From contig JALKBU010000119.1 in NCBI GenBank assembly GCA_023091735.1, positions 1-64,000 of the forward strand: a stretch of DNA of 64,000 bases, in the 5' to 3' direction. The DNA comes from Trichomonas tenax (Eukaryota; Parabasalia; Trichomonadida; Trichomonadidae). The notes under the pieces were generated by a model that saw only the letters and a list, made by a program, of their open reading frames with translations, ran no database searches and was not told the DNA's origin. Of this stretch, positions 6,207 to 53,111 are shown one piece after another (positions within the stretch are counted from its first letter, which is position 1; each line of letters begins with the position of its first letter). The translations under genes and the position numbers were made by a program.

Positions 6207-6239
6207 ATTATATATATTATTGATTTTTATTTTTATTAA

Positions 6240-6667: not shown

Positions 6668-6708
6668 TTTTATAAAATAAAACAATATAAATGTTTTAAA
6701 ATAAATAA

Positions 6709-7086: not shown

Positions 7087-7116
7087 ATTATAAGCGCGAC
7101 AAATAGTCGCAGATCA

Positions 7117-7884: not shown

Positions 7885-7924
7885 CTGATGATATAACATC
7901 CATACCACCAGAAGAACAATGATA

Positions 7925-8014: not shown

Positions 8015-8310
8015 TTATACAAAAATAAAAAATAAAATTAAGTTTTTAAATCGTAAGAATAAATATATGCTTTATGTAGTCAGGATTTATCATTCTATAA
8101 TATTGTTAACCTTTAAATTTTAAAATATAAACAGGTACTCATCAATAAATCTTTCATCTATTTATCCTTTTTATATTCAACATTGTCGCTGTTTATGAAA
8201 ATAAAAAAAAATTAACTTAGTTTTTCCCCACTATATATATTAGTTATTGTCCCCACTATATATAGATACAAAAAGTGGCATAGATACCATTACATTTACT
8301 ACTACTATTT

Positions 8311-8679
8311 TCGAGGATATGCATATGTTTGACTTGAGAATATCTTATGCCTTAATATGTAAAATCTATCTGCTAAGTTAATTTTGAAATTTCATTATAG
8401 AACTATTTTAATGCAATTAACGTTTACCAAAATAGGATAATGGTTCAAATGTTAACATATCATTTAACTCCTAATAATGTATTTATGGCATCAAATAAAT
8501 TTATAGTTATTTATCATATGATATAGTTGGTAAAGCATCTTTGGCTCGAGAAATAAGGTTAATAAAAATAATATTTTTATAGGATACAAAATAAACTCAA
8601 TTAACAAGTAGAGTAGTTGTTCTTCTGATGAATTATCTAACAAATTTAGAAAATCTACCAAATAATATTCCACCTTAAA
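8311..8679. other. Intergenic region
   Basis: No supported gene. A 60-codon minus-strand frame at 8491-8673 has no recognisable feature and normal A+T-rich background composition. Confidence 0.4.
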
Positions 8680-9759
8680 TTAATTACTGAACCAGAACCC
8701 ACCAATCAATCGCCTAATGACATCCCTCTGTACCAGTGGCTTAACAACAAATATGGCACATGTTGTTATCATTATCATAACAGATAACCACATTGGGAAC
8801 AGCAGCCAACTGATAAAAACAACAAAACACGCTTGGAACAGGTAAAGAGACTTCTTTGCATCCTGCCATGCAAACCATTCTTGGAAGAAGGAAGAAACTT
8901 CATAAAATCCTTCTGCTGGATGTCCTTTCCATTTATTGTCTTCAGCTTCACTGTCCTCGTCATCATCTCTGTCCTGCTTAAGTTTGAACCAACCATTGTA
9001 AAGTTGGATTCCAATTATCACAATTGCTGTTAAAGGGAAGAATGGAATAATTTTGAGAGCGAATGTTATGAGAGATACATAGAACAGTATGTGTAGCTTC
9101 AAATGCATATCAAAGTTTGTCGAATTAACGAATTGGGCGATTTTTAGAATTGGATCTAATAATTCGATCAATGTTTCAGCTTGAGGATCATTAGGTATTT
9201 CTTCGTGAACGATTTTCTTTGGTGCTGTGATTTCTGGTGTTGATGTCGCATCAGATTCTGATAAATCAAATTCAATTGATGCAAATGGTGTTTCGTCGAG
9301 ACTTGTTGATGTGACTATGTTGTAAACAAGATCGGTAAAGCTCTTTTCATCAAGTCTTGTTCCTTCAGCAATTTTTCTTAGAGTATTAAAACATTGGAAC
9401 AAACTTTTTGCTGTTGGGAATTTAAATGTAGAATATGCGCTTGCATTATCTGAAATTGATATTGATAGATCATTTCTTGTTCCTCGTAAACATCTTAAAG
9501 CATTATAAGTGCAATGAATGATTTGGTTATGTGGAACTGTGTTTTTTGGAAGATAAATGATCCTCTTAGAGGTCATATATAGTGATCCTTTGAGAAAATT
9601 CGTTGCTTCTCCTTCTTGGAATGAAATCTGAACATCATTGAATGAACAGATCAACGCTTCCTTCCTCAAACTGCCACCAAATATGAGCACTGCCTGTCGT
9701 ATCGGATCGTACTGTGGCTGCGTCCACTTTTCCCAAACATTTGCTGGCAATTCGTGCAT
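8680..9759 (-). CDS. GRAM-domain protein with C-terminal membrane segments
   Basis: A 359-residue protein from the ATG at 9759. Residues about 40-130 match a GRAM/PH-like fold, with FLKGSLYMTSKRIIYLPKN as the characteristic core. GRAM domains bind lipids or proteins at membranes (family knowledge). An acidic linker (about 160-205) precedes a hydrophobic hairpin (about 222-255), an acidic D/E-rich stretch, and a second hydrophobic hairpin (about 307-342) ending in a basic tail. Paired hairpins suggest an ER-shaping or contact-site protein, which is inference. The promoter contains TTGCGCCA about 100 bp upstream. No damage is seen. Confidence 0.75.
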   Translation of the reverse strand: MHELPANVWEKWTQPQYDPIRQAVLIFGGSLRKEALICSFNDVQISFQEGEATNFLKGSLYMTSKRIIYLPKNTVPHNQIIHCTYNALRCLRGTRNDLSISISDNASAYSTFKFPTAKSLFQCFNTLRKIAEGTRLDEKSFTDLVYNIVTSTSLDETPFASIEFDLSESDATSTPEITAPKKIVHEEIPNDPQAETLIELLDPILKIAQFVNSTNFDMHLKLHILFYVSLITFALKIIPFFPLTAIVIIGIQLYNGWFKLKQDRDDDEDSEAEDNKWKGHPAEGFYEVSSFFQEWFAWQDAKKSLYLFQACFVVFISWLLFPMWLSVMIMITTCAIFVVKPLVQRDVIRRLIGGFWFSN

Positions 9760-10377
9760 TTTTATTTGAATATTTCTCTATTTGATCGTGAAATTGTATA
9801 AAATCAGTGCTTTATAACGTATTAAACGCTTTGATTTGTACTTTTCTATCGATTTATTTTCCTTGCGCCATCAAAACTTCGCAAATATTATTAGATCAAT
9901 ATCAAAATCATGGAATCTGATCATTACCTCTTAAGTATATTTTTTCTACATAAAGTAAAAATGTTTCAATGTAATTATATAAATTGTAACTCTATATAGA
10001 TCGAAAATTGATTCATATCTTTTTATTATAATGCGTTCTATTAAAATTTCTCTTGGGTAAATATCTGTATAGAGACGCAAACTATTGCTATATCGTTTAT
10101 TTAGCTAAAAATCATATATAGAAATGTTTGACAAAACAATTTCAACATGTCAAATATTACAATATTATGACATGTAATTGAAATTTACAAAGCAGAAAAA
10201 TATGAAGTTTCTTTGTTTTATTCCAATAACAAAGAAACAGAGCTTCATTGCATTGATGAATTTAGAAAATTTGAGCAATACCACCAATACACATCAGAAA
10301 AAGCCATAATTATTAGAAATTTCAAAAATAGATTTTGAATTTGTAAAAAAGAATAATTCGGACAAATGGATAATAGT
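9760..10377. other. Intergenic region with an ACATGTCA inverted pair
   Basis: No gene seen. ACATGTCA (10145-10152) and TGACATGT (10168-10175) face each other across 15 bp that are themselves partly symmetric (AATATT...AATATT). This is the same motif family as the cluster at 20.86-21.14 kb. Confidence 0.5.
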
Positions 10378-10767
10378 TTACTCAGCGTTGAACTTAGCGA
10401 CGGCCTTGCCACCTTCAGAAACGGCGTGCTTGGCAAGATCACCTGGAAGAACAAGACGGACAGCTGTCTGAACTTCGCGGGAACCGAGTGTGTTACGCTC
10501 GTTCATATCGACGAGACGAGCACCCTCCTGAGCGATTCTCTCGAAGATATCTGTAACGAAGGAGTTCATGACCATCATAGCCTTGTTGGAGATACCGATA
10601 TCTGGGTGAACTTGCTTAAGGACCTTGAAGATGTAGGATGAGAATGTTTCAGCACGCTTCTTGTGGCGGAGCTTCTTGTCCTGCTTGGCAGCGTTGGCGG
10701 CATCGACGCCCTCGACGGCTGGCTTCTTCTCTGTTGGTGTCTTAGATGCTGGTTTCTTGGAAGACAT
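10378..10767 (-). CDS. H2B: Histone H2B
   Basis: A 129-residue core histone. A basic lysine-rich tail (residues 1-38) is followed by the H2B histone fold: [21 protein letters not shown], then [49 protein letters not shown] and a short tail. It pairs with H2A in the nucleosome. It is transcribed divergently from H2A across 164 bp, with a mirror-image promoter that should enforce equal expression. The stop is TAAA. The tail is short and diverged, as usual for trichomonads. Confidence 0.97.
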
Positions 10768-10931
10768 TCTAAACGAATGAACTCAAGAAATCGCCCGCCT
10801 AAAATTGAGAGCTTTTGCCGCGCTTTTTCACTTTTCGGCGCCAGAATTGAATACTTTTCATTTTGCCACTTTAGGCCGCGAGAAAATTTGTGAACTTTTT
10901 GGCGGGCTTTTCATCAGTTCATTATTTCGTA
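10768..10931. promoter_or_regulatory. Mirror-symmetric bidirectional histone promoter
   Basis: GCCCGCC (10793-10799, read as GGCGGGC toward H2B) and GGCGGGC (10901-10907, toward H2A) each lie about 25 bp from their start codon. Both are followed by AGTTCATT and then the ATG after 8-9 bp; TTCATT fits a trichomonad TCA initiator. Between them are further G+C-rich, E2F-like sequences: TTTTGCCGCGC at 10813, TTTTCGGCGCC at 10832 and GGCCGCGAG at about 10874. TTTTTGGCGGGC closely resembles the eukaryotic E2F/DP site, suggesting S-phase control. Confidence 0.8.
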
Positions 10932-11351
10932 ATGCCAGCTAAGAAGGGTGTTAAGAAGACAGCAACAAAGACAGCCGTCGATGGTGAACGCCAGCATCCA
11001 AAGACACGTTCATCCCGTGCCGGTCTTCAGTTCCCAGTCGGTCGTCTTCACAGATTCCTCCGTGAAGGCCGTTATGGTGAGCGTGTCGGTGCTGGTGCTC
11101 CAGTTTTCATGGCCGCTGTTCTCGAATATCTTACAGTCGAAGTCCTCGAACTTGCAGGTAACGCTGCTCGTGATAACAAGAAGACACGTATTTCCCCACG
11201 CCACATCATGCTCGCCGTCCGTAACGATGAAGAACTTAACCAGCTCCTCTCCAACATCACAATTGCCTCCGCTGGTGTCGTTCCACACATCCACAAGGTT
11301 CTTCTTGGCAATCCAAAGAAGGGCAAGGATGCCTCTCAGACACAGGAGTAA
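10932..11351 (+). CDS. H2A: Histone H2A with an SQ-containing tail
   Basis: A 139-residue H2A from the ATG at 10932; an upstream in-frame extension to 10890 is non-coding leader, since the ATG follows the TTCATT initiator. The fold is canonical: [20 protein letters not shown], the acidic-patch region [40 protein letters not shown] and [11 protein letters not shown]. The C-terminus ends ASQTQE: an SQ dipeptide five residues from the end, resembling but not matching the H2A.X SQ(E/D)-hydrophobic motif phosphorylated after DNA breaks. The stop is TAAA. Confidence 0.97.
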
Positions 11352-12147
11352 ACCTTTACTGTTTATCGGAATTTATTCATTTTTATTGTAATTTTTATAT
11401 TTACCAAAATTTATCAATGTCTCTAATCATTAGTAACTTTATGATTATAAAATGAGAGGCAATCAATATAAAAGATTAAAATTTTGAAATTCAACAAAGT
11501 GGATTTGTGATTCTTTAATTGTTATTAATGAAATTGGATTCGTCTTTTAAGTTTATTCACGAAGTGGTAAAAGTTAATTATGATTTATTCAAATTCAAAG
11601 AATATATTTTTGTATTTGACATTTGTTATTGTGAAGATATGTTTTATGGGAAGTTTTCTGCTTATTAGAATGTTAAATGGCTCCAATAATCTAATATTTG
11701 TGTTCAAAGAATATATATTCAGCACTTGACTTGTAGAACTACTCCTTTTTGTCTTAGAAGCTCCTGAAAATGATATATCAATGTATGCCCATAGTAGAAT
11801 TTCAAATCTTAATTCCTCTATAAAATCTAGTAAAGGGAAACGCATATAAATTGCTTTGTAGGTCTAAAGTAAAATTTTAACCCTATTCATTGGTAACAGT
11901 ATTTACCTCAAGTCTCAAATGTTTTTAGATTCAGTTAAATTATCTACTGGGAAATGAGCTAACCAAACGCAGGGTTAACAAAGGAAAATCCATTTAAAGG
12001 TTAGTTTGAGTTTTGTACGCTTCCGATTTGAAGATCAAAAAAATCAAATTTTCGCGCCAAATTTAAAACCCAAAGATTTGTGTTTTGCAATAAAAGGAGG
12101 TATCAAAAACACAAAAATTAAAATTTGAAAAATCATAAAAAAAATTA
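11352..12147. other. Intergenic region with an E2F-like site
   Basis: No supported gene. TTTTCGCGCCAAATTT at 12049-12064 is an almost ideal E2F/DP site (TTTSGCGC plus AAA), about 85-100 bp before the Tup1-like start. TCATAAAAAAAATTAATG gives a possible initiator directly before that ATG. Confidence 0.55.
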
Positions 12148-13440
12148 ATGTCATACCCGAGTGCTGAACAAATCCAAGGTATATTAACTAATCTCGCCTC
12201 AGAGTACGACCAATTGCTGGAAAACAGGACAAAGCTGCAGAATGACTGCACAAAGCTTCGAGAATTCATTGATTCTCAGATCCAGCAAATTCAAAACTTG
12301 AACCAGGACTTCGAAAAACTGAGGATAGAGTACTTACAGCACAGGAAGGAGACTGCCGCTCAAGGTATCCAGCCTCCGCCACGCCAACCTGTTCCACCGC
12401 CTGAATCGGAAAAACCGCAGGAGATAGTCGAGGAAGACCAGCAGGATTGGAAGGTTACAGCTCTCCCTGGTGCGGAGAAGTGCCCAGTTGATATTACGCT
12501 CGTCGCTGAAATTGTTGATATTTCTATTATTTGTTCCACCGCTTATTCACCAGATGGCAGTTGCCTTGCTATCGGCTCGAACAACGCAATGAGAATTTAT
12601 AATGTAGAAAACGATAAATTCATCTTACAATTCACAATCGAGAGCGAAAATCCGAACTTCATTCGTTCTATCGCTTGGACACCTCACGGAAAGCAACTTA
12701 TTTGCGGTGGTGAGGATTTCAAGCTTCGTGTCTTTGAACTTCAAGATAATCAAGAGGATCAAGCAGAACATGCAACTCCCATCAAAGTTATCGATGTTAA
12801 ATCAGCAATTCCGCAAATCAAATTCGTTACCGATGGTAAATTCTTCATTACAGCGACAAACGACGGAGTTTTAACGTTATGGGATGCAGTTAACTATACG
12901 AAAGCTTGGACATATTCTAGACCAGAGCAAAACATTGAAGCAGTCTCATTGGCTGTTTCGACAGATGATAAGCTCGTCGCTGTTGGTTATCGCGATAATT
13001 ATGTTTGCATTTTAGATTTAGAACATCGCAAGCTTTTACACGCATGCCAATGCCACACTGCTGGCGTCTACGCTATGGTTTTCATACCAAACACACATCG
13101 TTTGATTACTTCTTCCTTAGATTTTTCAATCAAGATCTGGGATTTCATCGAAAGTGGTGGAAATTACGATTTGAAGCTTGTAACAACACTCACCCCACAT
13201 AGCGACTATGTTTTGACTCTCGCCGTCGATCCTAAAGGAAAATGGTTGTTATCTGGATCAAAGGATATGACTATGAAAATAATCAACCTCGACTTACTGC
13301 AGCCTGTTTATAGTATCAAGAGCCATACAAACTCTATTATATCTGTTGATTTCAATCCAAATTCAATGGCGTTTTGCTCTGGCTCTGGTGATAAGATGGT
13401 TAAACTCTGGTCTATCCAATACCCTGATGGTATTGAGTAA
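12148..13440 (+). CDS. Tup1-like WD40 protein with N-terminal coiled coil
   Basis: A 430-residue protein. Residues about 1-68 form a coiled coil resembling the Tup1/Groucho tetramerisation helix (LTNLASEYDQLLENRTKLQ). A proline-rich linker (about 75-90) leads to a seven-bladed WD40 propeller from about residue 115 to the end, with GH/WD-like repeats such as LTLWDAV, FSIKIWDF and KMVKLWSI. That order (coiled coil, Pro-rich linker, C-terminal propeller) matches Tup1-type transcriptional corepressors, but other WD40 adaptors with a similar layout cannot be excluded. The stop is TAAT. An E2F-like site lies upstream. The gene is intact. Confidence 0.65.
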   Translation: MSYPSAEQIQGILTNLASEYDQLLENRTKLQNDCTKLREFIDSQIQQIQNLNQDFEKLRIEYLQHRKETAAQGIQPPPRQPVPPPESEKPQEIVEEDQQDWKVTALPGAEKCPVDITLVAEIVDISIICSTAYSPDGSCLAIGSNNAMRIYNVENDKFILQFTIESENPNFIRSIAWTPHGKQLICGGEDFKLRVFELQDNQEDQAEHATPIKVIDVKSAIPQIKFVTDGKFFITATNDGVLTLWDAVNYTKAWTYSRPEQNIEAVSLAVSTDDKLVAVGYRDNYVCILDLEHRKLLHACQCHTAGVYAMVFIPNTHRLITSSLDFSIKIWDFIESGGNYDLKLVTTLTPHSDYVLTLAVDPKGKWLLSGSKDMTMKIINLDLLQPVYSIKSHTNSIISVDFNPNSMAFCSGSGDKMVKLWSIQYPDGIE

Positions 13441-13875
13441 TTCATAGAATTTTCATATTACACATATAATATATATATATTTACGTTTTTCTTTTTTTGA
13501 TCAATTAAAAGCTTTTTATTTAATATATGCAACAACGGTTCTTAGCCTTACAAACTCCAAAAACAAAATATCTTTATTATTTCAAATATATCAACGACAA
13601 TATATGTTTATATTTTGGGTTTAAGCATAATTTTTCAAGTAAGATCAAATATGCATTACATAAAGCATAGACATTGAATATCAAAAATAGAAATATAATG
13701 TTATTACCGATTACATTGTAATTTTCTTGAATATTTTTAATCTATGTCTATTTTATAATCTGTGTCTAGATTTTAATTTTTAAAAAACTCGATATTAATT
13801 AAAGATATAATGAAAATTTGTAACAATTATCATAATTTTTTAAATTTATGATCTTAAAAAGTTTTCAGAAAAATA
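13441..13875. other. Intergenic region
   Basis: A+T-rich DNA with no supported gene; TTATCATAATT and TTTTCAG shortly before 13876 are possible initiators. Confidence 0.4.
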
Positions 13876-14172
13876 ATGGATTCAGATTTGAATGGTCTTC
13901 TTGCACAGAGAGAGCAACAGGAGCAGAATTTGAACCTCATTGCTGATGCCTCCGGCGAGGTGAGGCAGATGTCTATCGTTATCAATAACGAATTGCAAAG
14001 TCAAAATCAAATGTTGACTGACGTTCAAAATCACATGGATACGGTCCAAGACAAGATACAGAGAAACATCGAACAGATGGAAAAACTCACTCAATCATCG
14101 GAAGGGCCTTTATTATTGATATGCATAGTATTAACTTTGATTTTAATCGGCATGGTATATTGGGCTTTGTAA
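13876..14172 (+). CDS. Tail-anchored Bet1-type (Qc) SNARE
   Basis: A 98-residue protein with a single SNARE motif (about residues 15-72) of heptad-spaced hydrophobic residues and a central glutamine, probably Q43 in NNELQSQNQML, fitting the zero layer of a Q-SNARE. It is followed by a C-terminal membrane anchor (about residues 77-97). Length, absence of an N-terminal domain and the surrounding sequence match Bet1/Sft1-type SNAREs that drive ER-Golgi or intra-Golgi fusion. Assignment to Qc is by similarity; Qb is less likely. Confidence 0.8.
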   Translation: MDSDLNGLLAQREQQEQNLNLIADASGEVRQMSIVINNELQSQNQMLTDVQNHMDTVQDKIQRNIEQMEKLTQSSEGPLLLICIVLTLILIGMVYWAL

Positions 14173-15041
14173 GAACTCCTTATGGTAAGATCATGTATCT
14201 ATTTTTAAGAAAAAATTGATTTGTAATTTCAATTATACAAATTTATTCTCAAATCCCACTATACTTCAACCCATTAGAACCAACTTTTTAGTTCTTTATA
14301 TTATATTACCTTTCTATTTTATTTCCAATCAATACTAACTAATTATACAATATACTATACGGCCTTATGCATTTACTTCACGAATTTAGTCTAATTGCAC
14401 AATGTTGTTAGTCTGTTACTTATATTATTTTTATTTGTTTGAAAAATATTAAAATTGTTATTTTACTCTATCATTATTCGAATGTACTCCTACCAGATAT
14501 TTCACTGAATGAATATAATATATTGCTATTGATCAAAAATATTTCGAATTTCTTTTTTGAACATCAAATCATAATGGAAAATTGGGCATAGTTATTTCAG
14601 ATGACACAAAGTTGTTTCATCATATCTATCAACCATTAATCAAAACTTTCATAATTTTGCTAATTGAAAAAACAGCCGATGAGAAGAACTCTTTGAGGAA
14701 TATGATTTACAAATAATGTAGTGATAATATCAATCATAAAAAAGCTATGTTTGATGGACCAATATAAAATAATTAAATTTTTTGCATCCACATATAACGT
14801 AGATTCTAAAAATTAACTTGAAATGAATTTTTCAAATTTTACAAAATTTTCTCGAAAAACCAAAATCCAAAATTTCGTACTTTTCAGGTACTACATTTAA
14901 TAGAGATTATAAAAATCACCAAATCTCAATTTTTCAATATTTCGAAACAAAAACACAAAATTTTAAGTTTCTTAGAAAGCATTTCAAGTTTAGTATCTAA
15001 ATTGAAAATAAAAAAGATTGTCCAAAAAATCAAAAATTTTC
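14173..15041. other. Intergenic region
   Basis: Very A+T-rich DNA with no coding frame worth calling and no repeat recognised. TCAAAAATTTTCATG directly precedes the next start codon. Confidence 0.4.
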
Positions 15042-16643
15042 ATGGAGATAAAACAAGTTTGCGAGTCAGTAATTTCTTCGCAGACTGAGGAGACCATTTC
15101 GAGCTTTTCGACGCTAACGGAGGAACTCCCGAAGCAGATCATAGAAATGACAGGCACTTTCGGACAAAAACTTCAGTTTTTGAAAGATAATCTTTATTTT
15201 GACGCCTTAATGTCATCTTTTTCATATCCGCTATCGCTACAGCAACAACAGAGGATTCTTAAACTCTGGGATATATTTTTCCAGACCGCTGGTGATAAAG
15301 AAGACTACGATATTTTATTTTCGAATGATATCACAAACAAAGTTATATTATACGCTTTCGATTTGAATTCAGAGGATATCAGGCAGTCATATGCCACAGT
15401 TTTGAAGGGAATTTCACTTAAATTCAAAGAGTTTAATCACGATTATCTAATTTATAAAGATGAAATACCGATTTTATCTCATTCATTGCCATTCATTAAC
15501 TTCCAAGATTCGGTTACCGTGTCAGCAATGCGCTTTGTAATTTTAAATCTTTGCCTTTCTAAAAATGAAACGATTCAAGAAGCGATCAGCGATAAAACGT
15601 CATACACACCGATAGAGTACTTGATAAATAACATAGACATCGATGGATTCGCGTTCTTAGCCGACTTTTTACAAGTTGCTCCATTAGATCTCAAGAACTT
15701 CTCCTTGAATTTGCTCAGGAAGAAATTAGAGATCAGCGTCCCGGGCTTCTTCGCTACAGCTATAACATTCCTCGCTAGCTCTCAAGCAAGGTCTCTTTTA
15801 ATGGAAGTTATCAGTGCAAAGATCAATTCTTGGGATTTACACGATCCTTTGATTCTTGGCATCATATTGTACGCTCTCGAGAAGAAACTCATAAAGATTG
15901 ATGTTGCGCTGAGATGCGGCTTCAATAACACGCCTATACCACTTTTTGGTAAATCTCCGCATAATAAAGAGCGAAAGTTCGATTTGGTTTGTGAATTACA
16001 ATCTATTATGGATGATTTGATATCTCCTGTGCACACAGCCGTGATTCTTCGCATTTACACGATTCTCTTTAAATCTTTACACGAACCTGTCTTAAAGACG
16101 AAACAGAAGATCGTGCACATTCTCAGGACAGAGGGTAGTCAGGATTTGTTGAGAGTTGTCATGTATCCGCCTTCTCCACTGATAATGCGAACAGATTTAG
16201 ATTTTCTCCAGAAGAGTCAAGATATTCAGCCGAAGTTCGATAACTTAATGTATATGCTCGCTGAAATCCAGAACTATATCATGAGATACACCTGTGGAAC
16301 ATTTTTGTGGTATTTGGTCCCAAGCATTGATCTTCCACGCACAATGTCATTCAATTTGGTAAATGATGGCCAAAAGGTCACTGCTGATGCCAACACGATC
16401 ACCTTAAATGGTACAGAAATACCATTGAAGAATTGTATCATCACTTTAGAAACGAAGAAATGCGTCAGCATTAAGGTCGTTACAACAGATTCATCGCCAA
16501 GAATGTCCATACCATTCCGCACACAAAGTGAAACTTTATACACAATGGATTTCGAAACAGGAAATGTTGCCCAGGGATTCATTGAATACGTTTATGGACA
16601 GCAGTGGCAGATGGTCCTCAAAATGCTTGACGCAATTGCTTGA
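15042..16643 (+). CDS. CLEC16A/Ema-like protein with FPL domain
   Basis: A 533-residue protein; the ATG at 15042 is chosen because the earlier in-frame codon is TTG. The N-terminal half (about residues 40-180) matches the FPL domain of CLEC16A, Drosophila Ema and worm GOP-1. It has helical repeats, including RILKLWDIFFQTAGDKEDYD, an ILFSNDITNKVILYAFDLNSED segment and SYATVLKGISLKFKEFNHDY. CLEC16A relatives work in endosome maturation, autophagy and mitophagy. The C-terminal part has further helices and ends in a beta-rich, PH-like segment (about 440-520). The gene is shorter than animal CLEC16A but otherwise intact. Confidence 0.85.
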   Translation: MEIKQVCESVISSQTEETISSFSTLTEELPKQIIEMTGTFGQKLQFLKDNLYFDALMSSFSYPLSLQQQQRILKLWDIFFQTAGDKEDYDILFSNDITNKVILYAFDLNSEDIRQSYATVLKGISLKFKEFNHDYLIYKDEIPILSHSLPFINFQDSVTVSAMRFVILNLCLSKNETIQEAISDKTSYTPIEYLINNIDIDGFAFLADFLQVAPLDLKNFSLNLLRKKLEISVPGFFATAITFLASSQARSLLMEVISAKINSWDLHDPLILGIILYALEKKLIKIDVALRCGFNNTPIPLFGKSPHNKERKFDLVCELQSIMDDLISPVHTAVILRIYTILFKSLHEPVLKTKQKIVHILRTEGSQDLLRVVMYPPSPLIMRTDLDFLQKSQDIQPKFDNLMYMLAEIQNYIMRYTCGTFLWYLVPSIDLPRTMSFNLVNDGQKVTADANTITLNGTEIPLKNCIITLETKKCVSIKVVTTDSSPRMSIPFRTQSETLYTMDFETGNVAQGFIEYVYGQQWQMVLKMLDAIA

Positions 16644-42845: not shown

Positions 42846-44810
42846 ATGAGAGAGGTTTCATTTGACAAACAAAAATTTAACGAAATAAGTGACGCCATCA
42901 TTGCGCATTTCGATGCTGCTCCAGCACTCTCTCCCAGAACTCGTGAAGAACTTATAACTATCTATGGATGTCCAGAAATGCATGTTAAAAATCCTGACGA
43001 TATACGTCCTCCTTCTCCGTCTGAGTCTATCACGAATACGCAGGAGTATCTGAAAAAACTTGCGCGTGACGGATTCGTTCATTCTGTTGATACTGATGCA
43101 TTCGACAGAGAAATGATGAAAAGAAAGAACGAAGTGCTTCAAAAGAACAAGAAAACACGACAGCAAGAAGAAGCGGAAAACTCAGACATAACATCTCTCG
43201 TTACGCAAGAACCATATTTACAATATTGGTTAAGCACCGATACAGTTCAAACAATTGTCGCCGAAATCAATAATCTGCCTCTAAGGGAGGTCCACACCAA
43301 CTTTATTTTAGTCAGTCGGTTTTATAATTCAATAACGTCATTTGTAAGGAAAGAAAAAGCGAAACAGACAAGAAAAAAGATGACAGACGCAATGCTGAAG
43401 AAGCAGATGTATGATTTCGTCGTTGAAGCAAGAAATTTACGAAAGAATATTTTCGAAAACGCAATTCGCACAAATACGATTAAAACTGAAGATTTAAGCG
43501 TTGATTTAAGGAAAGAATTCGCAGACGCAATCAGTTCAGTCGAATTTAAGAAGGAAGAAGAAAAACCACGAAATTTAACTAAAGAATTAAAGAAATTAAG
43601 TCCAGAAAACGAATACGCTTTCTTAGCACACGCGAGAGCGACAATGGATAAGTTCCCGAAGCCGTATAGAATGAATGAGCAAATGTTTTATCCAAATGAG
43701 CTCAAAAATCAAGAAGCAAAATTATTGTCGTCTATAGACAAGCTACCATCAATTGAATCTGATTTATTGAGAAAGCAGTCGAAGTCAACCACAGTTATCA
43801 AAGCGCCAGTCATAGTTCAGCCAAAAACGAAAAAGATTAATGTTCTTTCGAATTTCACGACAAAGAAGAAAGAACACAGAAAATCTGATGTTTCTGATGA
43901 CCAGTATAAGCATATTGACCATATAAGGTATTTCTTGCAGAATGATGATCCTATTGCAAATCGATCAGGCGAAGTCACTTCAATTATCGATGAAATCAAT
44001 GGAATGACCGATGTTTATGTTGACGTAAGAGAGTTTAAATCAGAAGCAAATCCATTTCCACATCTTCAAGTTAAAGATTACGTTAAACCAGTCGAAGCGC
44101 CAAAGAAAGACACAGCAGTTCTTGTGGGTGATACTCTCATCACAGACACTATCTGGAACACAGCCCAGATGTCAGAAGAAACGCAAGTCAAAGCTCCACC
44201 ACAAAAATCAACACAAAACAAAGTCGATGAAAAGAAGGACGACGATGAGATGATTATCAATGGAATATCTGTGAAGAACTTAATGGGTGTTCAGCAATCA
44301 TTAGGAATGTCTCCAACATTCAAGTTCTTGATGGCGAATTCAATCTTTGGAGAAAACAAAGTTGAAGGTATTGAAGATCAAATACCTGCTATTAAGACTC
44401 TCGATGACTGTCTTAGAAGACTTGGATATTCTAGTTTCCACAAACTTGAGTTGTTCAAGAAATATTCTACAACTATCGGCGATATGTCCAAGATTGATGA
44501 TGTTATTCCTTTCTGGGAAAATGTTGCCATTTGTGCTGAAAAGTTTGAGTCTGCATACAGAGAACTCAAAAGTTATGTTTCTATTGGATTGGCTATTGAT
44601 GAAACAATCGGAAAAGGTGTTAAATTGGATCCACTGACACTTACATTTAAGACCGCATGTGATAACTTAGAAAGCGCTTGCCAGAACTTGCAGACAGCTG
44701 CAGGAGATATTGCATGGATCAGAAAACATTCGTTCCATGAGTGCATCGAACACAAGAAGAAGAAAATCGAAGAACTCGAAGCAAAATCACGTGAAGCTAC
44801 AAAAGCATAA
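42846..44810 (+). CDS. Large coiled-coil protein, probably cytoskeletal
   Basis: A 654-residue intact protein. It is highly charged, with coiled-coil-prone stretches around residues 85-110, 160-200 and 635-654, a central lysine-rich disordered part (about 310-345), and a helical C-terminal domain (about 460-630; KTLDDCLRRLGYSSFHKLEL, then FWENVAICAEKFESAYRELK). There is no signal peptide or membrane segment. Size, composition and neighbouring PGP-repeat gene suggest a flagellar or cytoskeletal role, which is inference. No family is recognised. Confidence 0.7.
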   Translation: MREVSFDKQKFNEISDAIIAHFDAAPALSPRTREELITIYGCPEMHVKNPDDIRPPSPSESITNTQEYLKKLARDGFVHSVDTDAFDREMMKRKNEVLQKNKKTRQQEEAENSDITSLVTQEPYLQYWLSTDTVQTIVAEINNLPLREVHTNFILVSRFYNSITSFVRKEKAKQTRKKMTDAMLKKQMYDFVVEARNLRKNIFENAIRTNTIKTEDLSVDLRKEFADAISSVEFKKEEEKPRNLTKELKKLSPENEYAFLAHARATMDKFPKPYRMNEQMFYPNELKNQEAKLLSSIDKLPSIESDLLRKQSKSTTVIKAPVIVQPKTKKINVLSNFTTKKKEHRKSDVSDDQYKHIDHIRYFLQNDDPIANRSGEVTSIIDEINGMTDVYVDVREFKSEANPFPHLQVKDYVKPVEAPKKDTAVLVGDTLITDTIWNTAQMSEETQVKAPPQKSTQNKVDEKKDDDEMIINGISVKNLMGVQQSLGMSPTFKFLMANSIFGENKVEGIEDQIPAIKTLDDCLRRLGYSSFHKLELFKKYSTTIGDMSKIDDVIPFWENVAICAEKFESAYRELKSYVSIGLAIDETIGKGVKLDPLTLTFKTACDNLESACQNLQTAAGDIAWIRKHSFHECIEHKKKKIEELEAKSREATKA

Positions 44811-45227
44811 TCATTGCTATATTTTATCTTAATAATATGGTTCACCAAACTAGCCATTTATGTTTTTATTATGTTTGTATATTTATACCATGTAATAAAG
44901 ATTTTTGTTTGTTTTTATGAATTATTTTTTTTTATTCAGGACGACTAACTTGAAAAGTAACTGTTAAGGATAATGATTTTTCTTTCTGACATTTAACATT
45001 TTACATTATGCTATTTCTGACAGTTCCAACACTTTACATTGATGATAATGAAGTAATTCAAGGAATTTTAAAAATCCTTAGCCGTAATAAGCAGTATATA
45101 TATTGAAGATTAATTATTTTGTTTTTCAAAAAAGTTAAAAAGTTAAAAAATAAATAGTTTATTCATAAGTTTCCTGTGTCATTAAAAATTTGAATTATTT
45201 ATTGGTTATGAAATACAGTTAGTATGT
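44811..45227. other. Intergenic region, left border zone of element 2
   Basis: A change from host-like to very A+T-rich sequence occurs here. No terminal repeat or target-site duplication was found. Confidence 0.35.
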
Positions 45228-45273
45228 AACATTTCGCTCGTTTGTACCTAGCGGCACAAACGATTTAAATGTT
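45228..45273. other. Element 2 hairpin with loop ACCTAGCGGC
   Basis: Loop ACCTAGCGGC (45246-45255) closed by a perfect 8-bp stem TCGTTTGT/ACAAACGA (45238-45245, 45256-45263), then a 3x3 internal loop (CGC/TTT) and an outer 7-bp stem AACATTT/AAATGTT (45228-45234, 45267-45273). The loop is identical to that at 5443-5452, while stem bases differ yet remain paired. Confidence 0.85.
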
Positions 45274-45391
45274 AGTTCTACCGTGTTTTAAATTTACAAA
45301 ATCTTTATCAGGTCCATACACCAGAAATAAAATTTAAAAATAAATATAAAAATAATAATAATTAAAATAATAAATATTTTTTATCCAATAA

Positions 45392-45757
45392 ATGTCAAGT
45401 TATATATATCAGTATTCATTTCCAGAGAGATTACAGAAGTTGTTTAATACAGATGCTAAATTTAAAAATACTGATATAGATCCTGAATATATTACTTTGC
45501 CGTATGATGTTAAGTTTATTCCGTATAGTGATACAGTTATTCAGAAGAATAGATTTTCGTATTTAACTAAGAATTACTTTTATAGTGAATCTGAAGATAA
45601 AATTTATTATATTAGTTATTATATGAATAATATAACTGTATTAAAACAGAACTGTCATAATAATTATATGTTATATGGTGATGACGGCAAAGGACATTAC
45701 ATTAATCCATATAACAGGTATTGTTACTTTAAGGAATGTTTAAATATCTATTTATAA
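45392..45757 (+). CDS. Tyrosine-rich protein of element 2
   Basis: A 121-residue intact frame. It is rich in Tyr, Phe and Asn (YSESEDKIYYISYYMNN) and without hydrophobic segments. It is the first gene after the hairpin and converges on the fibre pseudogene. Comparable in size and composition to the intact gene at 6709-7086 of element 1, but not obviously homologous. No family is recognised. Confidence 0.5.
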   Translation: MSSYIYQYSFPERLQKLFNTDAKFKNTDIDPEYITLPYDVKFIPYSDTVIQKNRFSYLTKNYFYSESEDKIYYISYYMNNITVLKQNCHNNYMLYGDDGKGHYINPYNRYCYFKECLNIYL

Positions 45758-45764
45758 AAATATA

Positions 45765-45810
45765 AATAATATATTTCTTAATTAATTATCATAACCAATT
45801 TCTGAATCTT
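45765..45810. repeat. 46-bp segment identical to 5513-5558
   Basis: Identical copy of the element 1 segment, here lying just beyond the stop of the fibre gene; the shared minus-strand frame again ends DSEIGYDN. Possibly a conserved recombination or 3'-end signal sequence. Confidence 0.9.
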
Positions 45811-47940
45811 TAAGCAGTTCTATACCGAGCATATCCAGTAATGTACGGTGGCATGTAATCTGTTCCGGAACCTGTGTTATAAGTATTACCACTAATAATA
45901 TGTGAGTGATCACCACTAGAACTTGTTTCTCGATCTTGCCACCATGATAAATGTTGACCAGAACCACCATCAGATCCTTTAAGTCTTTGTGCTGTAGTAT
46001 ATTTATGTGTATGACTACCACTATTATTAATGTTTAAATTAATATAATGGTTATGTGCTGGTAAGTTATTAATAGATATCTTTTTAGAACCACCAGTTTG
46101 ATTACTACTATTAGCACAATACATAAATTTATCAACGATTTGTGTCAATGTACCAAATCCTAAAGCTATACTAGGATTAGTACTATTCATAGATGTATAG
46201 ATAGAACCTATTGGATATAAGTTTTGTATCATTTGAGATAACGATTTACTATTATTAACAAATAATTGATATATATATCATTTAATCTTTGATGAACATC
46301 ATAATAATATTCTTTATCTGGATCTTTTACAGAAACACTATCAGTTTTAATATTATTAAATTCTGTATGTGCATGATTAATATTAGATTTATTATTTATT
46401 ATATTTTCTAAATCTTCATGTGTATGATCTTTGCTAGCTTTATTATTTAATTCTTGAATTACATTTAATCTATTATCCTAATTTGGTTCCATATATATTA
46501 TATCATTATTTGTAATTAGACCTGCTGTAAACGTTGGTGATTTTAATTGCTGGTGCACCATCTGTTTCATATACATAAGCACCAATTTCATTTATTGAAG
46601 CTTTATTAAATATACTATGTGTATAATTTATATCAGATTTATTATTTAATTCTGTACTTAAATCTTTATTATTAATATTAATTTCTTGAATATTAATCTT
46701 ACCAACTGTTATAGATGTTTGATATCCTGGTTCTTCATTTATTTCTAAATCATGATCATCAGGTATTTTAGTGAAACTAGTTAAATTATCATTTATTGAA
46801 CATAACTGTCTAAATACTTCGGCAACTGTAAAAGTAATAAGTAAATCATTATTTTTCTCAGTACCTTCAAAACTTATATTATTATCTTTAATCACACTAT
46901 TAATATAATTCAATAAAACATCATAACTAGGAAATAGCTTATTGAACTTTTCAGCAATTGTTGGTTCAGGTACTACAGTTTCTTCTTCTTCAGTAACTTC
47001 ATTAATATCTCTAGCCATAAAACTTCTAGTACCAACTCTAGATAAGTTTCTAAGAAATGTAGTAACTTGACTGAATAAATTCTTATGACTATCCATTACT
47101 TGTCCTGTAAGATCTTGTATCCAATTAATATTATTAGTAGTCATAGTATTTGTTTCTGAGACGAATGTACGAAACGATTCTAAATTAGATGTAGTACCTC
47201 CTAACATACTGATAACATATTAAAGTTTCCTGTAATTGTATGTGTGAACTCTTCCATTCTTTGAACCCACTTCGCTAAATTATTAATAATAAATACATCA
47301 CCACCAGTAGATATGACATTTAAAACTTCACGTAATGTATCTAAACCTTGTATCTTAGTTAATAATACTGATGACTGTGATACTTGATATTGAAGAGCAG
47401 CAAATGAACCAGCTGTTAATCCAGTATTTATTAAATCCCATATCCAACCTTTAGCTGAAGCACCATCTTCACCATCTAAACCATCAGGTCCTTGTGGTCC
47501 GGTATCACCTTTATCTCTGGTATCACCTTTAATTCATCATGATGTTTATTTAAATAATCTAATGTTAATAAATCAACATTTGTTTCATCACTTAAAATAT
47601 TAGATATTACTTTACCAGATATTTCTATAGGTTTTTAAAATTTAATTATATCATTAAATTCAAAGTTATTATTTAGTAAACTAATCAAATAAATAATATA
47701 AGTTAATGAATTTCTAATGTATTCATCAATAGTACTTTCTTTAAATAAAATATCAGTATTTGATATAAATGGTACATATACTATTGCTTGTCTTGGATCA
47801 AATGTTCTATCGATATAAATCCTACGTGATGTATTACCATCAGATATTATTAAACTTATATTATCAAAGCTTAATCTGTATTTATCAAATACTAAACACT
47901 TATATCTTTCGCTAATATATGAATATGGAGCAACTGACAT
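45810..47940 (-). pseudogene. Collagen-like, phage-tail-collar-like fibre protein (broken)
   Basis: Reading from the ATG at 47940: a 101-residue N-terminal part; an in-frame TAA at 47635 after which the frame continues; a shift near 47525 into a short collagen-like run (GDTGPQGPDGLDGEDG) and a helical part; an intact 233-residue frame (46506-47207); a segment with KDHTHEDLENIINNKSNINH repeats; and a final 140-residue frame (45810-46232). That last part has the layout of tail-collar/fibre tips: YPIGSIYTSMNSTNPS, then a glycine-rich loop, LPAHNHYIN, SGDHSHIISG, and YMPPYITGYARYRTA at the end. Such domains form trimeric receptor-binding tips in phages and some giant-virus-type entities. At least three lesions exist. 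Viral-fibre function is inferred. Confidence 0.75.
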
Positions 47941-47957
47941 TTTAAAATTAATAAAAC

Positions 47958-48682
47958 ATGTATTTCTATTTGAAATCGACTGATCCAGTAAATGACAATA
48001 AGGTTAATATTAACACAGAAATACCATTATATGATAATGAGAATATTATGATACGTATTAAAACGTTTCTTTCAATTCAATTATAATATTATGTGATGAA
48101 AACGATTACATAAAAATACAAACATCTTATAGCACTAAAACTTATTTTACAACTATGACATCATTAGATTTGATATCTATACCACAATACTTACAACAAG
48201 TAGTATTTAGAGATGAAATTACAGTGAATTATTAAGATGATACGACATTAGTATTATCTGGAGATATTATAAATAAATTAGATTGCTATCACAGAGCTAA
48301 ATTAATATTAGGATTATATCATACATCATTACCATTATTAGCAAAAAATAATATTATAACGATACCATCAAGTACAATTATTAATTATGATAATAACTTA
48401 TTTATTAAATCTAATATAACTAATATATCTGGTATAACTAATGAAAAGAAATTAGAATATATATCTTTGATTTATAACATTAAAGAATTCATATTCCCAT
48501 TTGTACCTATTATTAGTAAAACACCAGGAAACTATATCAAAATAAAACCTTATGAATTAAGAAACTTAGAATTTACATTAGTTGATGAATTTGATAAACC
48601 TATAGAAATCAAATCACCTATAAGTATTGTATTAGAAGTAATATATGAAAAAGATTATATCCCAATGTTTTATATTAATTAA
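47958..48682 (+). pseudogene. Possible minor capsid (penton-like) protein of element 2
   Basis: Divergent from the fibre gene with 17 bp between start codons. An ATG at 47958 opens a beta-rich sequence, shifted by one indel near 48075 and interrupted by TAA at 48233-48235. The last 72 codons (48467-48682) form an intact beta-rich end with RNLEFTLVDEFDKPIEIKSP before a final strand. That ending is reminiscent of the C-terminal region of the short jelly-roll or penton-like proteins of Polintons; it is a resemblance only. Size, about 240 codons, would fit. Confidence 0.45.
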
Positions 48683-48921
48683 AATACCTGATATATATGA
48701 TCAATATCTTAAAATATATAACAAATATAAAAAGATATATACCCAATATAAATTAACAGTACTAATATTAATATTAATTCATGTGAATTATTAAGGGCAA
48801 TTAAATTTTTATACGCAAAGTCGGCGAAACTCGTTTTTTTAACTCACTGGATTAACTTCTTGCGAAGTTATTGAACCCCAATGTGCAAAATCATGTTGTG
48901 CATGATATATTAAAGAATTAG

Positions 48922-49077
48922 CTAACAAAGTCTATATTTCATTAAAATATTAGATATATCTTGCATCAAAAACACTGATTTGCCATGATGTGCTTTACTC
49001 ATTATAATATATTCCCATTGTATAGCATTTTTATAACGTAAAATAGGTTGTTGTCGATGATAAATAGGTAAATCTAA
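48922..49077 (-). pseudogene. Walker-A ATPase fragment, possible packaging ATPase (left arm)
   Basis: On the minus strand an open stretch of about 51 codons reads ...RYKNAIQWEYIIMSKAHHGK followed by SVFLMQDISNILMKYR before a TAG. The GKS within HHGKS after a beta-strand-like IIM is a P-loop candidate, and the following helix fits. In another frame the sequence continues with ANSLIYHAQHDFAHWGSITS. Layout is compatible with an FtsK/HerA-type (A32-like) genome-packaging ATPase of Polintons, but only the N-terminal part survives. Its inverted copy on the plus strand lies in 49214-49459. Confidence 0.45.
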
Positions 49078-49213
49078 TCACAAATATGCTTTTTTTGGAA
49101 AAAAGTATTCCAAGTATTCACACATAAGCTCTGTGTGTTATTTTCCCAAAAATAATGATGATTCTTTTTTGCGCAGCTAAATTTGACAAATTTATTAAAT
49201 TGAGAAGAATAAC

Positions 49214-49459
49214 ACAACCTATTTTACGTTAAAAAAATGCTATACAATGGGAATATAATATATTATAATGAGTAAAGCACATCATGGCAAATCAATGTTT
49301 TTGATGCAAGATATATCTAATATTTTAATGAAATATAGACTTTGTTAGCTAATTCTTTAATATATCATGCACAACAGGATTTTGTACATTGGGGTTCAAT
49401 AACTTCGCAAGAAGTTAATCCAGTGAGTTAAAAAAACGAGTTTCGCCGACTTTGCGTAT
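49214..49459 (+). pseudogene. Inverted copy of the Walker-A fragment (right arm)
   Basis: Plus-strand copy of the same segment, with MSKAHHGKSMFLMQDISNIL preserved but the upstream codons disrupted by an insertion (TATAATATATTATAATG). Together with the left arm it shows the ATPase gene fragment was duplicated in reverse orientation. Confidence 0.5.
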
Positions 49460-49592
49460 CAATTTTAGACAAGCCATACACTTCTGGTGTTTCTAAAAGA
49501 CCAATCTTGATAAAAACTTAGAATCCAAATTTAAGCAATATATTAATGGTCTTAAATCCAAGATTAGCATTTTAATTAATAAAATAGCAGAT

Positions 49593-50693
49593 ATGGGAGA
49601 TGCTGTGCCTGTAAATGAAGAAACACCTAAAAAATTAAAAGATATGAAACTATCTGATTTAAGTTCGTCATATTTAAGACAAATGATAACAGATTTAGCA
49701 AATGAATCAACATTTACATCATTAAAGTATTATAGAGATAATGCTGAATTAGATGATATGATTTATTGGCTTGAAATTGAAAGAGATACATTCCCTAAAA
49801 CTAGATTAAAAGGACCCAGTGCAATATATTTATTTAAGAAGAAAGTTAAATATTCAGAGTTAAAGATTCCTGAAGAAGAAAAAAAAAAAAAAAAACGGTT
49901 TCCTAGAACAAAGAAAGATTTTGATGTAAATATGAAATTAAATGGTGAAGTATTTAGAGGTAGAACTGCTATTTTCGAGAATTAATTTTCTTATGGTGAT
50001 AATGGAAATGAACTTAAAGATATGTTCTTGAAATCGATTAATGCTTCTATAGTGAGATTTAGAAATGAATGGGAAAAACATAATAAAAAACTTAAGGAAT
50101 CTAAATCTAATGATAAACCTATAGAACAAAAACCATCAAATACATCCACAATAATTAATAGTGATCCAATTATTACTAATTCAGATAAACCAATTGAAAA
50201 TCTTAAAGAAACACTTATACATAATAATATACCTAATAATCCAAAATTAAATATATCTAAAAATAATAGTATTATTATTAATCATGGTAAACCTAAATTA
50301 TCTATATCAAATAATAATAGTTTTGAAATACAACCATCTAAACCTAAATTATCATTATTTAGTAATGATCCAATTATTATTAATCCTGGTAAACCAATTG
50401 AAAATCTTAGAGAAACAGTTATACCTAATAATTTACCAGAAAAACCTAAATTAAGTGCTTTTCTTAGTCAAGCATATGAATCATAAACTAAAGCTAATAA
50501 TGAAAAACCTAAGTTATCTATATCTGAAAATAATAATATTAATATTGAACAAAATAAACCTATGGATAATTTAAAAGAAAGTTTACTTCATAATAATCTT
50601 AAACAAAAATCATTATTAGAAACTTATAGTAGTGAATTTCATAATGGACCAATATTATACCATTCAATTAAACAAAAGAATAAAAATAATTAA
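49593..50693 (+). pseudogene. Element 2 protein with Asn-rich repeats, two in-frame stops
   Basis: One frame of 367 codons from the ATG at 49593 (open back to about 49503 without another ATG) is interrupted only by TAA at 49983-49985 and TAA at 50484-50486. The N-terminal third is helical and charged, with a lysine tract encoded by a run of about 16 A's near 49880. The rest has repeats of the type KPIENLRETVIPNN, KPIENLKETLIHNN and KPMDNLKESLLHNN alternating with KPKLS blocks. Repetition suggests a structural or scaffold role in the element; no family is recognised. Confidence 0.6.
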
Positions 50694-50704
50694 ATAGTAT
50701 ATAT

Positions 50705-51025
50705 TTATATAACTGCTATATTACCATCTAATAGTATTGCTTCAATATATAATTGGCCTTTATTATCTTTTGGTAATATAATTGGTGTTTTATGATCAAC
50801 TGTATAATATAAATCAACCCAAAATTCATCATTAAAACCTTTAAGTCGAAAATACTTAATATGTGATAATGTATACTTTATTGTGTGACCAAGATATTCA
50901 TCTTTAACTTCTTGTGCTATATTACTATATAATATACAGCTATTTCTATCCCATATATTTTTTTTGACACTTTGTCAGATTTTTCGAACATCTTCATCTC
51001 TTAATAACTCTTTATAGAGCAACAT
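50705..51025 (-). pseudogene. Element 2 small gene with one internal stop
   Basis: A 106-codon frame from the ATG at 51025 with a single in-frame TGA at 50975-50977, otherwise smooth beta-rich coding sequence (KYTLSHIKYFRLKGFNDEFW, then VDLYYTVDHKTPIILPKDNK). It converges on the repeat protein with 11 bp between stops and marks the right edge of recognisable element genes. No family is recognised. Confidence 0.5.
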
Positions 51026-51143
51026 TTAAAATGTTTTAACGCAATACCATTAAAATATAGTATTAGTATAAGCATTTTTATATATCAAAATAGTTCAACA
51101 ATGATGTAATCTTAAATTATGTTGATTGACCAATAAATAAAAA

Positions 51144-53111
51144 ATGGAGATGGAGAATCCTTTCCTCAATGGTCAAGAAAAGAAATTCAATAAAGGAAAG
51201 CTTTGCGTTACGAAGTACCTTTGGGTCTTTCTGATCGTGGTTCCATTGGGAATGCGTCTTATTTTCCCGATTAAATATGCGTCCATTCCAATTTCGAGTT
51301 TAAAACGTGAAATTCCGTTCGATAATGCAACAAATCCTAACTATTTCGCGGTTATGGCGGATGTACATGTATGGTATGACGAAAGAAATCGCAGATTTGA
51401 AGAAGGCATGGATTATGCACGTGAGTTACAGTCAAAATACGTCATAATCGCTGGTGATCTCGTTAATAACTGGAAGGCCGGCTACAAACAACAAATTTCT
51501 TCAAGAAATCCTGTCGAACACGAAATGTACCACAATATCACGGCAAACATGTCGCAATACTTCACGACTATCATTGATATCTCAGGTAATCACGATATGT
51601 GGGATGTAAGCCAGTTTTACTCGCCAACAAATGATTTTCCACAATATTCACATTATTACTCTAAAATAGAGAATCTTACTGAGGACGAATTCGCTTGTTC
51701 CACAGTTTTCGTTGAAGACAACGCATTTCTGCTGTTAAATCCAATGAGATTCCCACAACCAAGATCTGTTTATGATTTTTACACGCATATGAACAGAAGA
51801 TTCCTAGATTTGTTCGAAAAGAACATAAAACTTGCTTCCAATGCTACGCACATCTACGCATTGTTGCATTATCCAGTTTGCTTCTTGATTGAAGATGAAA
51901 AATCAAGTTCTGGAAAAACTTTCATTCAGATTCTTTCTGAATCAAAGATAGCGTTTTTGATCACGGGACACACACATCCTTCCACTGCTTCACCGATCCA
52001 TCACAAAAATGCAACAGAAATCATTTCTTCGGACATCACAACACACGCAAATGTCGGAATTATCACGGAAGATAATGGAAACTCTGTTTTCCACACTTTC
52101 AAGACAGGCACAAAAGTCAATGGTTTGCTTGTTAATCCACCACCTTATAAACAAATTGGTGGACAGTCATATTTCAATGAAGAAAAGATCAATGTTAAGC
52201 TTTTAGCTTTCACAAATTCATCGAATGAAGACATTAAAGTTAATGGAATCAAAATGGAATTCCATCACTTTGTTAAAGAAAACAGAGCAGTTTATGTTGC
52301 AAATATTGGCAAGAAGTCAGGAAAGTTCACACTCCAGTTCAGAGGATTCTACAGCAATGATGTTGAATGCTTCAATGGACCAACAGTTCCTTCGAGATGG
52401 GAAGATCCAGGAATCATTCACTCGATATTCATTTTGGGATATATCTGGCTTGGTTTGATGTCATCTATAATGGTTTTCATCCTATTCCCATTCGATCTTG
52501 CAAATTGTATTAAGATATTTGCAAGATTAAGAATGAAGATCAACAATTGGCTTCAGAGTAATGTTTGGTGCTCTTTCGAATCATTGATTTTCATTGTCTT
52601 CGGCTTTTTGACATTGAGAACAAGATTCTTGAGAAATCCATTATGGCTCCGTCTCTGTCTGTTCATTGTTTTAATCGCTCTTGCTTTCATTCCATTTGGA
52701 TTTACAAGATTTGATGGAAAACCAGGATTTATCTCAATGTTGGGATATTTCGCGAGTGGCAAGTTAATGGTTGAGCCTTCAGGTGCATTGTTATTCGATT
52801 GCTATTCTTTGACAATCATTATGTCTTGTATCTTCATGTCCGCGATGGTTGTTGATTACACCACATTCTCTTGGACAACAATTGTTGATGCTGCAGTAAT
52901 CATTGTTTTACTTATTGCTAACTCATTGATTATTAACTCATTCATCACTCAATTGCTTGGCGTTGCACATGCTTGGGCCAACTTCACGTTTGTTATCGCA
53001 CCAGCAATTCTGTTCGTCATGATTATCATCAATAGAATTGTCAACAAGAACCGTTTCAATGACGATCTCCTCAATCAGTCTCAGATAACTGTTAATATCT
53101 TTCCTACATAA
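51144..53111 (+). CDS. TMEM62-like calcineurin-type metallophosphoesterase
   Basis: A 655-residue membrane protein. A transmembrane segment (about residues 23-45) precedes a luminal calcineurin-like phosphoesterase domain with the metal-binding motifs MADVHVW (about 71), AGDLVNN (about 103), ISGNHDMWD (about 145) and TGHTHP (about 275). A beta-rich domain follows (about 330-420), then four to six membrane helices from about residue 430 to the end. This arrangement matches TMEM62, a poorly characterised eukaryotic family. Catalytic residues appear complete, so it is probably active. It begins about 120 bp from element 2 and is intact. Confidence 0.9.
   Translation: MEMENPFLNGQEKKFNKGKLCVTKYLWVFLIVVPLGMRLIFPIKYASIPISSLKREIPFDNATNPNYFAVMADVHVWYDERNRRFEEGMDYARELQSKYVIIAGDLVNNWKAGYKQQISSRNPVEHEMYHNITANMSQYFTTIIDISGNHDMWDVSQFYSPTNDFPQYSHYYSKIENLTEDEFACSTVFVEDNAFLLLNPMRFPQPRSVYDFYTHMNRRFLDLFEKNIKLASNATHIYALLHYPVCFLIEDEKSSSGKTFIQILSESKIAFLITGHTHPSTASPIHHKNATEIISSDITTHANVGIITEDNGNSVFHTFKTGTKVNGLLVNPPPYKQIGGQSYFNEEKINVKLLAFTNSSNEDIKVNGIKMEFHHFVKENRAVYVANIGKKSGKFTLQFRGFYSNDVECFNGPTVPSRWEDPGIIHSIFILGYIWLGLMSSIMVFILFPFDLANCIKIFARLRMKINNWLQSNVWCSFESLIFIVFGFLTLRTRFLRNPLWLRLCLFIVLIALAFIPFGFTRFDGKPGFISMLGYFASGKLMVEPSGALLFDCYSLTIIMSCIFMSAMVVDYTTFSWTTIVDAAVIIVLLIANSLIINSFITQLLGVAHAWANFTFVIAPAILFVMIIINRIVNKNRFNDDLLNQSQITVNIFPT

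Follow-up and report, generated by a model that had tools for sequence, protein, structure and literature searches.

A decayed Maverick/Polinton-type element with fibre and putative penton genes in Trichomonas tenax, and a recurring hairpin at element ends

The Maverick-Polinton elements of Trichomonas vaginalis were reportedly described by Pritham in 2007. A type-B polymerase (PolB) of the organellar/viral family together with an rve (retrovirus-type) integrase, often bearing a chromodomain, forms the gene set of this class, whose terminal inverted repeats are long and start with AG and whose target-site duplication is 5-6 bp. Further traits of the class are a packaging ATPase of FtsK/HerA type, a double jelly-roll major capsid protein, a single jelly-roll penton and an adenain-type protease. 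About 5,000 copies are present in T. vaginalis, including nested, fused and fragmentary ones (PMC7845603), and they carry a capsid gene that has been equated with DUF4106; parabasalid capsids form a Metamonada group, and Tritrichomonas foetus is also rich in Mavericks (PMC10120064). Fibres that join collagen to as many as seven phage tail repeats have been described for T. vaginalis elements (n = 20; PMC12220804). Most Polintons encode a penton protein, for which T. vaginalis is not named in the passages of PMC4409740 concerned. Here, a 64-kb stretch of Trichomonas tenax DNA (contig JALKBU010000119.1, positions 1-64,000; hereafter the window) was found to contain a virus-like segment at 45217-50989, which is decayed, gene-dense and A/T-rich (24% G+C) and is flanked by host-like genes. 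This segment is very probably the truncated and now dead remnant of a Maverick/Polinton and thus of an endogenous virus belonging to the protist.

The region 44780-51200 was read by listing frames on both strands and scanning them against Pfam, and its pieces were searched against the 53.4-Mb assembly (1528 contigs) that holds the window. Part 45200-48800 has at least 80 matches in the genome including itself (40 of 252 candidates scored), the longer ones about 82-95% identical in DNA and some short ones lower. A 233-residue fibre frame matches at no fewer than 145 places, again including itself (150 of 162 candidates scored). With so many copies, the element is therefore not a chance occurrence. 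It belongs to a known kind: the T. vaginalis Mavericks likewise combine PolB, integrase, capsid gene, inverted repeats and very high copy number, with many copies fragmentary, fused or nested (PMC7845603, PMC10120064), and published T. vaginalis elements have fibres in which collagen is combined with repeats. The two differ in that the family here resides in another genome, has capsid proteins 45-51% identical to four homologues named from T. vaginalis and, in a search in which no control gave a signal, shows no match to the DUF4106 model.

The left limit of the element is position 45217. The alignment at this edge comprised eleven stretches, one of them the window (10 distinct loci, since L004 and L033 are the same), and AGTTAGT opens all of them. 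Their left flanks show no mutual match at E <= 1e-4 except between L004 and L033; the flank of L024 matches another piece of element sequence, so that this copy adjoins one. Because the copies share the AGTTAGT start while their flanks are unrelated, 45217 is a genuine element end. Allowing 0-1 mismatch, the end pattern occurs at 60 genome sites, two of them in the window, and at none for the reversed control.

The right edge is of another nature. DNA matches of all seven relatives examined stop at 50962, and the protein match extends to 50989, which corresponds to residue 209 of gene o9. Beyond this edge, five of the seven (L020, L039, L040, L041, L042) keep matching each other for 0.37-1.0 kb; L031 shares short pieces only and L027 nothing. 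The end of PolB is reached about 0.65 kb past the edge in L039 (contig C812) and about 0.7 kb past it in L040 (C41), and the PolB of relatives past this point is 86-91% identical to that of the element on contig C14. The pattern search (0-1 mismatch) found no element end here. The right edge is thus a truncation, since the relatives run on past 50962/50989 to PolB. An element ending near 51025 is excluded by the DNA match stopping at 50962 and by the further sequence that the relatives share. The first-pass annotation, which had placed the limits at 45228-51025, was largely right about the segment; its limits move to 45217 and to 50962 (DNA) or 50989 (protein). The parts that are kept, which include the terminus, a small gene, the fibre, the putative penton, o10 and part of o9, are as follows.

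45217-45274, plus strand: element end, AGTTAGT followed by a hairpin at 45227-45274; the alignment of relatives reaches this base, outside which their flanks have nothing in common.
45392-45757, plus strand: small open frame of 121 residues that adjoins the element end in relatives too (86% identity to the C481 homologue over 128 residues).
45810-47940, minus strand: fibre gene, broken, with N-terminal part, collagen run, repeats and Gp10-like tip (C14 fibre match, PF21939).
47958-48682, plus strand: predicted penton (minor capsid protein), broken by a change of frame near 48062 and by a single in-frame stop.
48795-49475, no strand: foldback repeat of 681 bp, not viral, with arms at 48808-49013 and 49257-49462 that are 98% complementary.
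49488-50660, plus strand: gene o10 with K/P-rich repeats, broken (right limit approximate).
50708-50989, minus strand: gene o9, C-terminal third only (residues 209-302 of 302), with one stop; 85% identical to C14 o9.

The compact, virus-like gene set noted in the first-pass annotation is borne out. The fibre (start 47940, minus strand) and the putative penton (start 47958, plus strand) form a divergent pair with 17 bp between them, and the element without its foldback insert has 24.3% G+C, compared with 33.2% for the whole window. The fibre has both features read at first sight, a collagen run (at about 47.5 kb) and a tail-collar-like tip: its C-terminal frame, at 45810-46232, matches Gp10_C (PF21939) with an E-value of 2.4e-20. 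The 770-residue C14 fibre aligns to the window in eight pieces across all three minus-strand frames, two of them with a stop; phage tail repeats (PF12789) were found in this C14 homologue, and PHROG tail-fibre matches were obtained for the fibre. A collagen run fused to such repeats is shared with the fibres of T. vaginalis elements and of Organic Lake virophage (PMC12220804). In contrast to those, the window fibre adds the C-terminal Gp10-like tip; the term "Gp10" is absent from the main text of that article. The small frame has no Pfam match at E <= 1, Pfam assigned no family to the penton pieces, o9 or o10, and PHROGs gave no match for o9 and o10 and one chance-level match for the penton. 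In C41, C228, C812 and C1105, the two blocks beside the o10 repeats (50398-50452) are separated by about 0.7 kb, the amount by which o10 is shorter in the window copy; the repeats may either have been lost from the window copy or gained in the four relatives. Gene o9 is cut short because the rest of the element is lost.

What that rest contained is indicated by the C14 element. It spans 338-16350 (about 16 kb); its terminal inverted repeats measure 374/371 bp, with 4 mismatches and 3 gap positions counted on their alignment, and it was on this element that long inverted repeats were tested, the window copy keeping one end only. Its gene set comprises a capsid gene, a Zot-like ATPase, an integrase C-terminus, PolB, o9, o10, penton and fibre. 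The PolB matches PF03175 (E 1.2e-34), a family that has 79 places genome-wide, 76 of them over the cut-off; polymerases of this type are protein-primed. The ATPase (L019:4354-5292) matches PF05707 Zot above the cut-off (E 3.5e-07), and a PDB sequence search with it returned nothing better than E 0.13. The integrase C-terminus is 56% identical to a 400-residue rve protein of L048; genome-wide, rve integrase has 33 matches, 20 of them over the cut-off, and the chromo/Tudor-like part is weak, its best Pfam matches falling below their cut-offs. PolB adjoins o9 on C14, C812, C41 and C228. In C14, PolB stands between o9 and the integrase; in the subfamily of L048 an open 400-residue integrase stands tail to tail with an o9 homologue, so gene order varies. 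PolB and integrase belong to the missing part of the window copy, since relatives continue into PolB and the C14 integrase lies beyond it. Neighbourhood distances were computed on first coordinates only. Among the 22 o9 places with a DNA match as far as the truncation point, 7 have an rve match no more than 5 kb away in one direction or the other; among the 33 rve matches, 13 have a PolB, o9 or fibre match at a distance of 10 kb or less. For fibre-tip matches within 10 kb of a PolB match the share is low (15/150), which short contigs, truncated copies and the limit on scored candidates may explain.

Beside the C14 fibre gene lies an HNH endonuclease frame (L020:5640-6191). Sequence on this contig goes on beyond the element end, from about L020:6350, and includes a frame similar to one in L028 as well as a further AGTTAGT hairpin at L020:8261; nested or adjoining elements are likely here.

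The gene called capsid-like in the first-pass annotation does encode a capsid protein by this analysis, and more specifically a predicted single jelly-roll penton: the AlphaFold model of a homologue matches the pentons of mavirus, Sputnik, PBCV-1 and adenovirus. The fold is the same, with about 7-15% identity in the aligned parts, and the larger insertions of the adenovirus penton base would, judging by lengths, be absent from the trichomonad protein of about 240 residues. The major capsid gene of C14 (L019:2123-3343) has 76 protein relatives, T. vaginalis proteins among them, and 36 of these were used for alignment; few of the relatives bear a name, and T. vaginalis is the sole named eukaryote among those. 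The model of the T. vaginalis homologue P0015 (TVAGG3_0209670) is a double jelly roll (pLDDT 85.4) for which Foldseek returned the capsid proteins of iridovirus, PBCV-1, mavirus, Sputnik and PRD1 with probability 1.00. Through this homologue, the C14 gene is predicted to encode a double jelly-roll major capsid protein. A search of the genome with Pfam DUF4106 gave no match (no control gave a signal in that search), and the DUF4106 model does not match P0015; the family may possibly represent a second capsid lineage beside the DUF4106 type. Searches of IMG/VR with the capsid, the penton and the end pattern matched 55, 66 and 0 stretches, none of which was confirmed.

Taking C14 as a guide, the part lost from the window copy would have carried PolB, integrase, ATPase and the major capsid gene. 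The remaining part took up the foldback repeat, differs from its relatives in the repeat run, and has stops and frame changes. In intact relatives, as in the family at large, linear DNA would integrate by means of the integrase and copy itself with PolB, the ATPase would package it into a double jelly-roll capsid, and new cells would be entered by means of the fibre held at the penton. The latter pairing fits the adjacent, divergent arrangement of the penton and fibre genes. The window copy itself is no longer capable of integration, copying, packaging or entry. We know of no direct study of the copying mechanism of parabasalid Mavericks.

The first-pass annotation proposed that this is a non-canonical and possibly distinct lineage, on the ground that polymerase and integrase are absent. 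Such a lineage could be a small Polinton-like element that never had these genes and is moved by full Mavericks. The stretch 45217-51025 does lack PolB and integrase, and its left end is common to many copies. Such a lineage would need two element ends enclosing the gene set; the right edge of the window copy bears no end pattern, most relatives share sequence beyond it with PolB next, and collinear relatives (C812, C41) continue past the truncation into PolB. A separate lineage is thus very improbable; the proposed membership of the Maverick class is upheld by the PolB and integrase C-terminus of C14, and with it the reading as a decayed element of Maverick/Polinton type that has fibre and capsid genes and lies in a protist genome rich in Mavericks. 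What might have passed for a new lineage of viruses is thereby settled as a truncated copy of a known kind. Affinity to polinton-like viruses (PLVs) or virophages, closer than to Maverick-Polintons proper, is unlikely. In its favour, mavirus and Sputnik are among the structural matches of the penton and capsid models, T. vaginalis elements are termed PLVs in PMC12220804, and parabasalid capsids stand in a group of their own (PMC10120064). The family nevertheless has a type-B PolB of the organellar/viral kind and an rve integrase. Contamination by a bacteriophage or prophage, which the Gp10_C and PHROG tail-fibre matches could suggest given the phage-like tip and tail repeats, is hardly credible for a fibre frame present at so many genome places, in a family with a penton of eukaryotic-virus type, PolB, rve integrase and T. 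vaginalis capsid homologues; phage-like fibres are moreover known in such elements (PMC12220804).

Several observations weigh against the reading as a dead, truncated Maverick/Polinton copy. The structural matches have modest TM-scores (query-normalised 0.32-0.51 for the penton, 0.38-0.51 for the capsid), and no protease, of adenain type or otherwise, was recognised among the C14 frames scanned against Pfam, several of which have no family. C14 is an imperfect template, its o9 block being inverted relative to C41 and the window. A flanking target-site duplication was not shown: the window copy has one end, and on the two contigs compared at both ends, C14 and C135, the flanks do not match. The ends of C135 are of different subfamilies, and that contig may be a mosaic. 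Lastly, stop codons in assemblies of high-copy repeats can be artefacts (PMC10120064), and the locus might be less broken than it appears. This is improbable even as a partial account of the decay, because the truncation, the insertion of the foldback repeat and the loss of repeats alter the structure on a large scale, unlike errors at single bases.

The penton assignment, by which parabasalid Mavericks gain a structure-supported penton beside the fibre gene, and the terminal hairpin, as a candidate replication or integration signal, are of greater interest than the window copy. A literature search of mostly open-access papers, with the original Maverick papers outside it, found neither a penton of parabasalid Mavericks nor a hairpin at the ends of Mavericks described; in the papers examined for the word "hairpin", it refers to other things. 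The window hairpin (45227-45274, 48 nt) folds as DNA at -12.1 kcal/mol (z-score -4.8), and eight other hand-picked element ends have z-scores from -2.3 to -9.6. It probably corresponds to the shared 46-bp segment of the first-pass annotation and is common to a second element end in the window, at 5414.

A stem-loop of about 30-48 nt, starting 10-14 bases inside the AGTTAGT tip, recurs with several unrelated stems (ACATTT..., AGATGTTCGCA..., AGAAATT...). The stem sequence differs between subfamilies and most of the stem still pairs, with compensatory changes inside one subfamily. Covariation was assessed on 13 ends of one subfamily, leaving out the ACAATT type, a one-base-gap copy, a duplicate and other stem families. 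Among these, 86.4% of cells pair (76.2% in shuffles), and the covariation score of 0.233 was reached by none of 500 shuffles (0.084; slid versions <=0.065). Pairs changed on both sides (7 versus 4.7; 34/500 shuffles as high) and further pair types (15 versus 14.1; 208/500) do not stand out, and in several stems the middle is unpaired. A hairpin measure counting pairs separated sites poorly (19/60 versus 247/2117 control sites), and a measure of energy and position was adopted after that result had been seen. By the latter, hairpins occur at 14 of 57 AGTTAGT sites in loci picked by gene, compared with 11 of 2537 sites of 60 permuted heptamers; over all loci the counts are 16/60 and 36/3101, and one permuted heptamer reached 42%. 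The hairpin is a recurring feature of element ends. That it is kept by shape and not by sequence is possible, if rather doubtful. If so, it could be read as extruded or single-stranded DNA, and might serve as the start of protein-primed copying, in end pairing during integration or as a packaging mark. The AGTTAGT sites L044, L020:8261, L022:2738, L032:7915 and L027:6995 have hairpins that are built on unrelated stems but are spaced similarly from the tip. A first version of the end pattern had the wrong spacing (4 matches versus 2 for the control), yet it revealed another hairpin family.

The foldback repeat accounts for the Walker-A, ATPase-like gene of the first-pass annotation. The frame is carried by the foldback arms and is also readable in foldback copies L051 and L052, which rules out a viral ATPase gene in the stretch. 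The repeat is high-copy, with at least 106 genome matches (40 of 401 candidates scored), and two relatives that lack it, C41 and C769, have 87-88 bp at its insertion place. Copy L051 on C1402 has AAATTTGAAA on both sides, a 10-bp flanking duplication; the window insertion shows no such duplication and adjoins a small loss of element sequence. The duplication at C1402 suggests a Mutator-like element, an assignment that is a guess. Its resemblance to TvMULE of T. vaginalis, whose target duplications are 10-14 bp (PMC2725143, table), consists in the long inverted arms and in the 10-bp duplication of the one copy; in contrast to TvMULE, no transposase was seen.

The second element end belongs to a separate truncated copy.

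5414-7301, plus strand: second truncated copy, with element end, o2 gene, capsid residues 1-40, inner loss and further genes.

Its o2 match has 78% identity, and capsid residues 1-40 (78%, E 1.4e-14) are the only piece of major capsid in the window. The inner loss amounts to about 1.8 kb relative to C135, C783 and C461. The two window copies are not halves of one element, as each keeps its element end at the lower coordinates and is truncated towards the higher ones. Just past the second copy, two inverted repeats of about 66 bp (93%) lie at 7437-7503 and 8199-8264, about 0.7 kb apart; they may belong to another small transposon. The window also contains a GAPDH gene; trichomonad GAPDH is of bacterial type.

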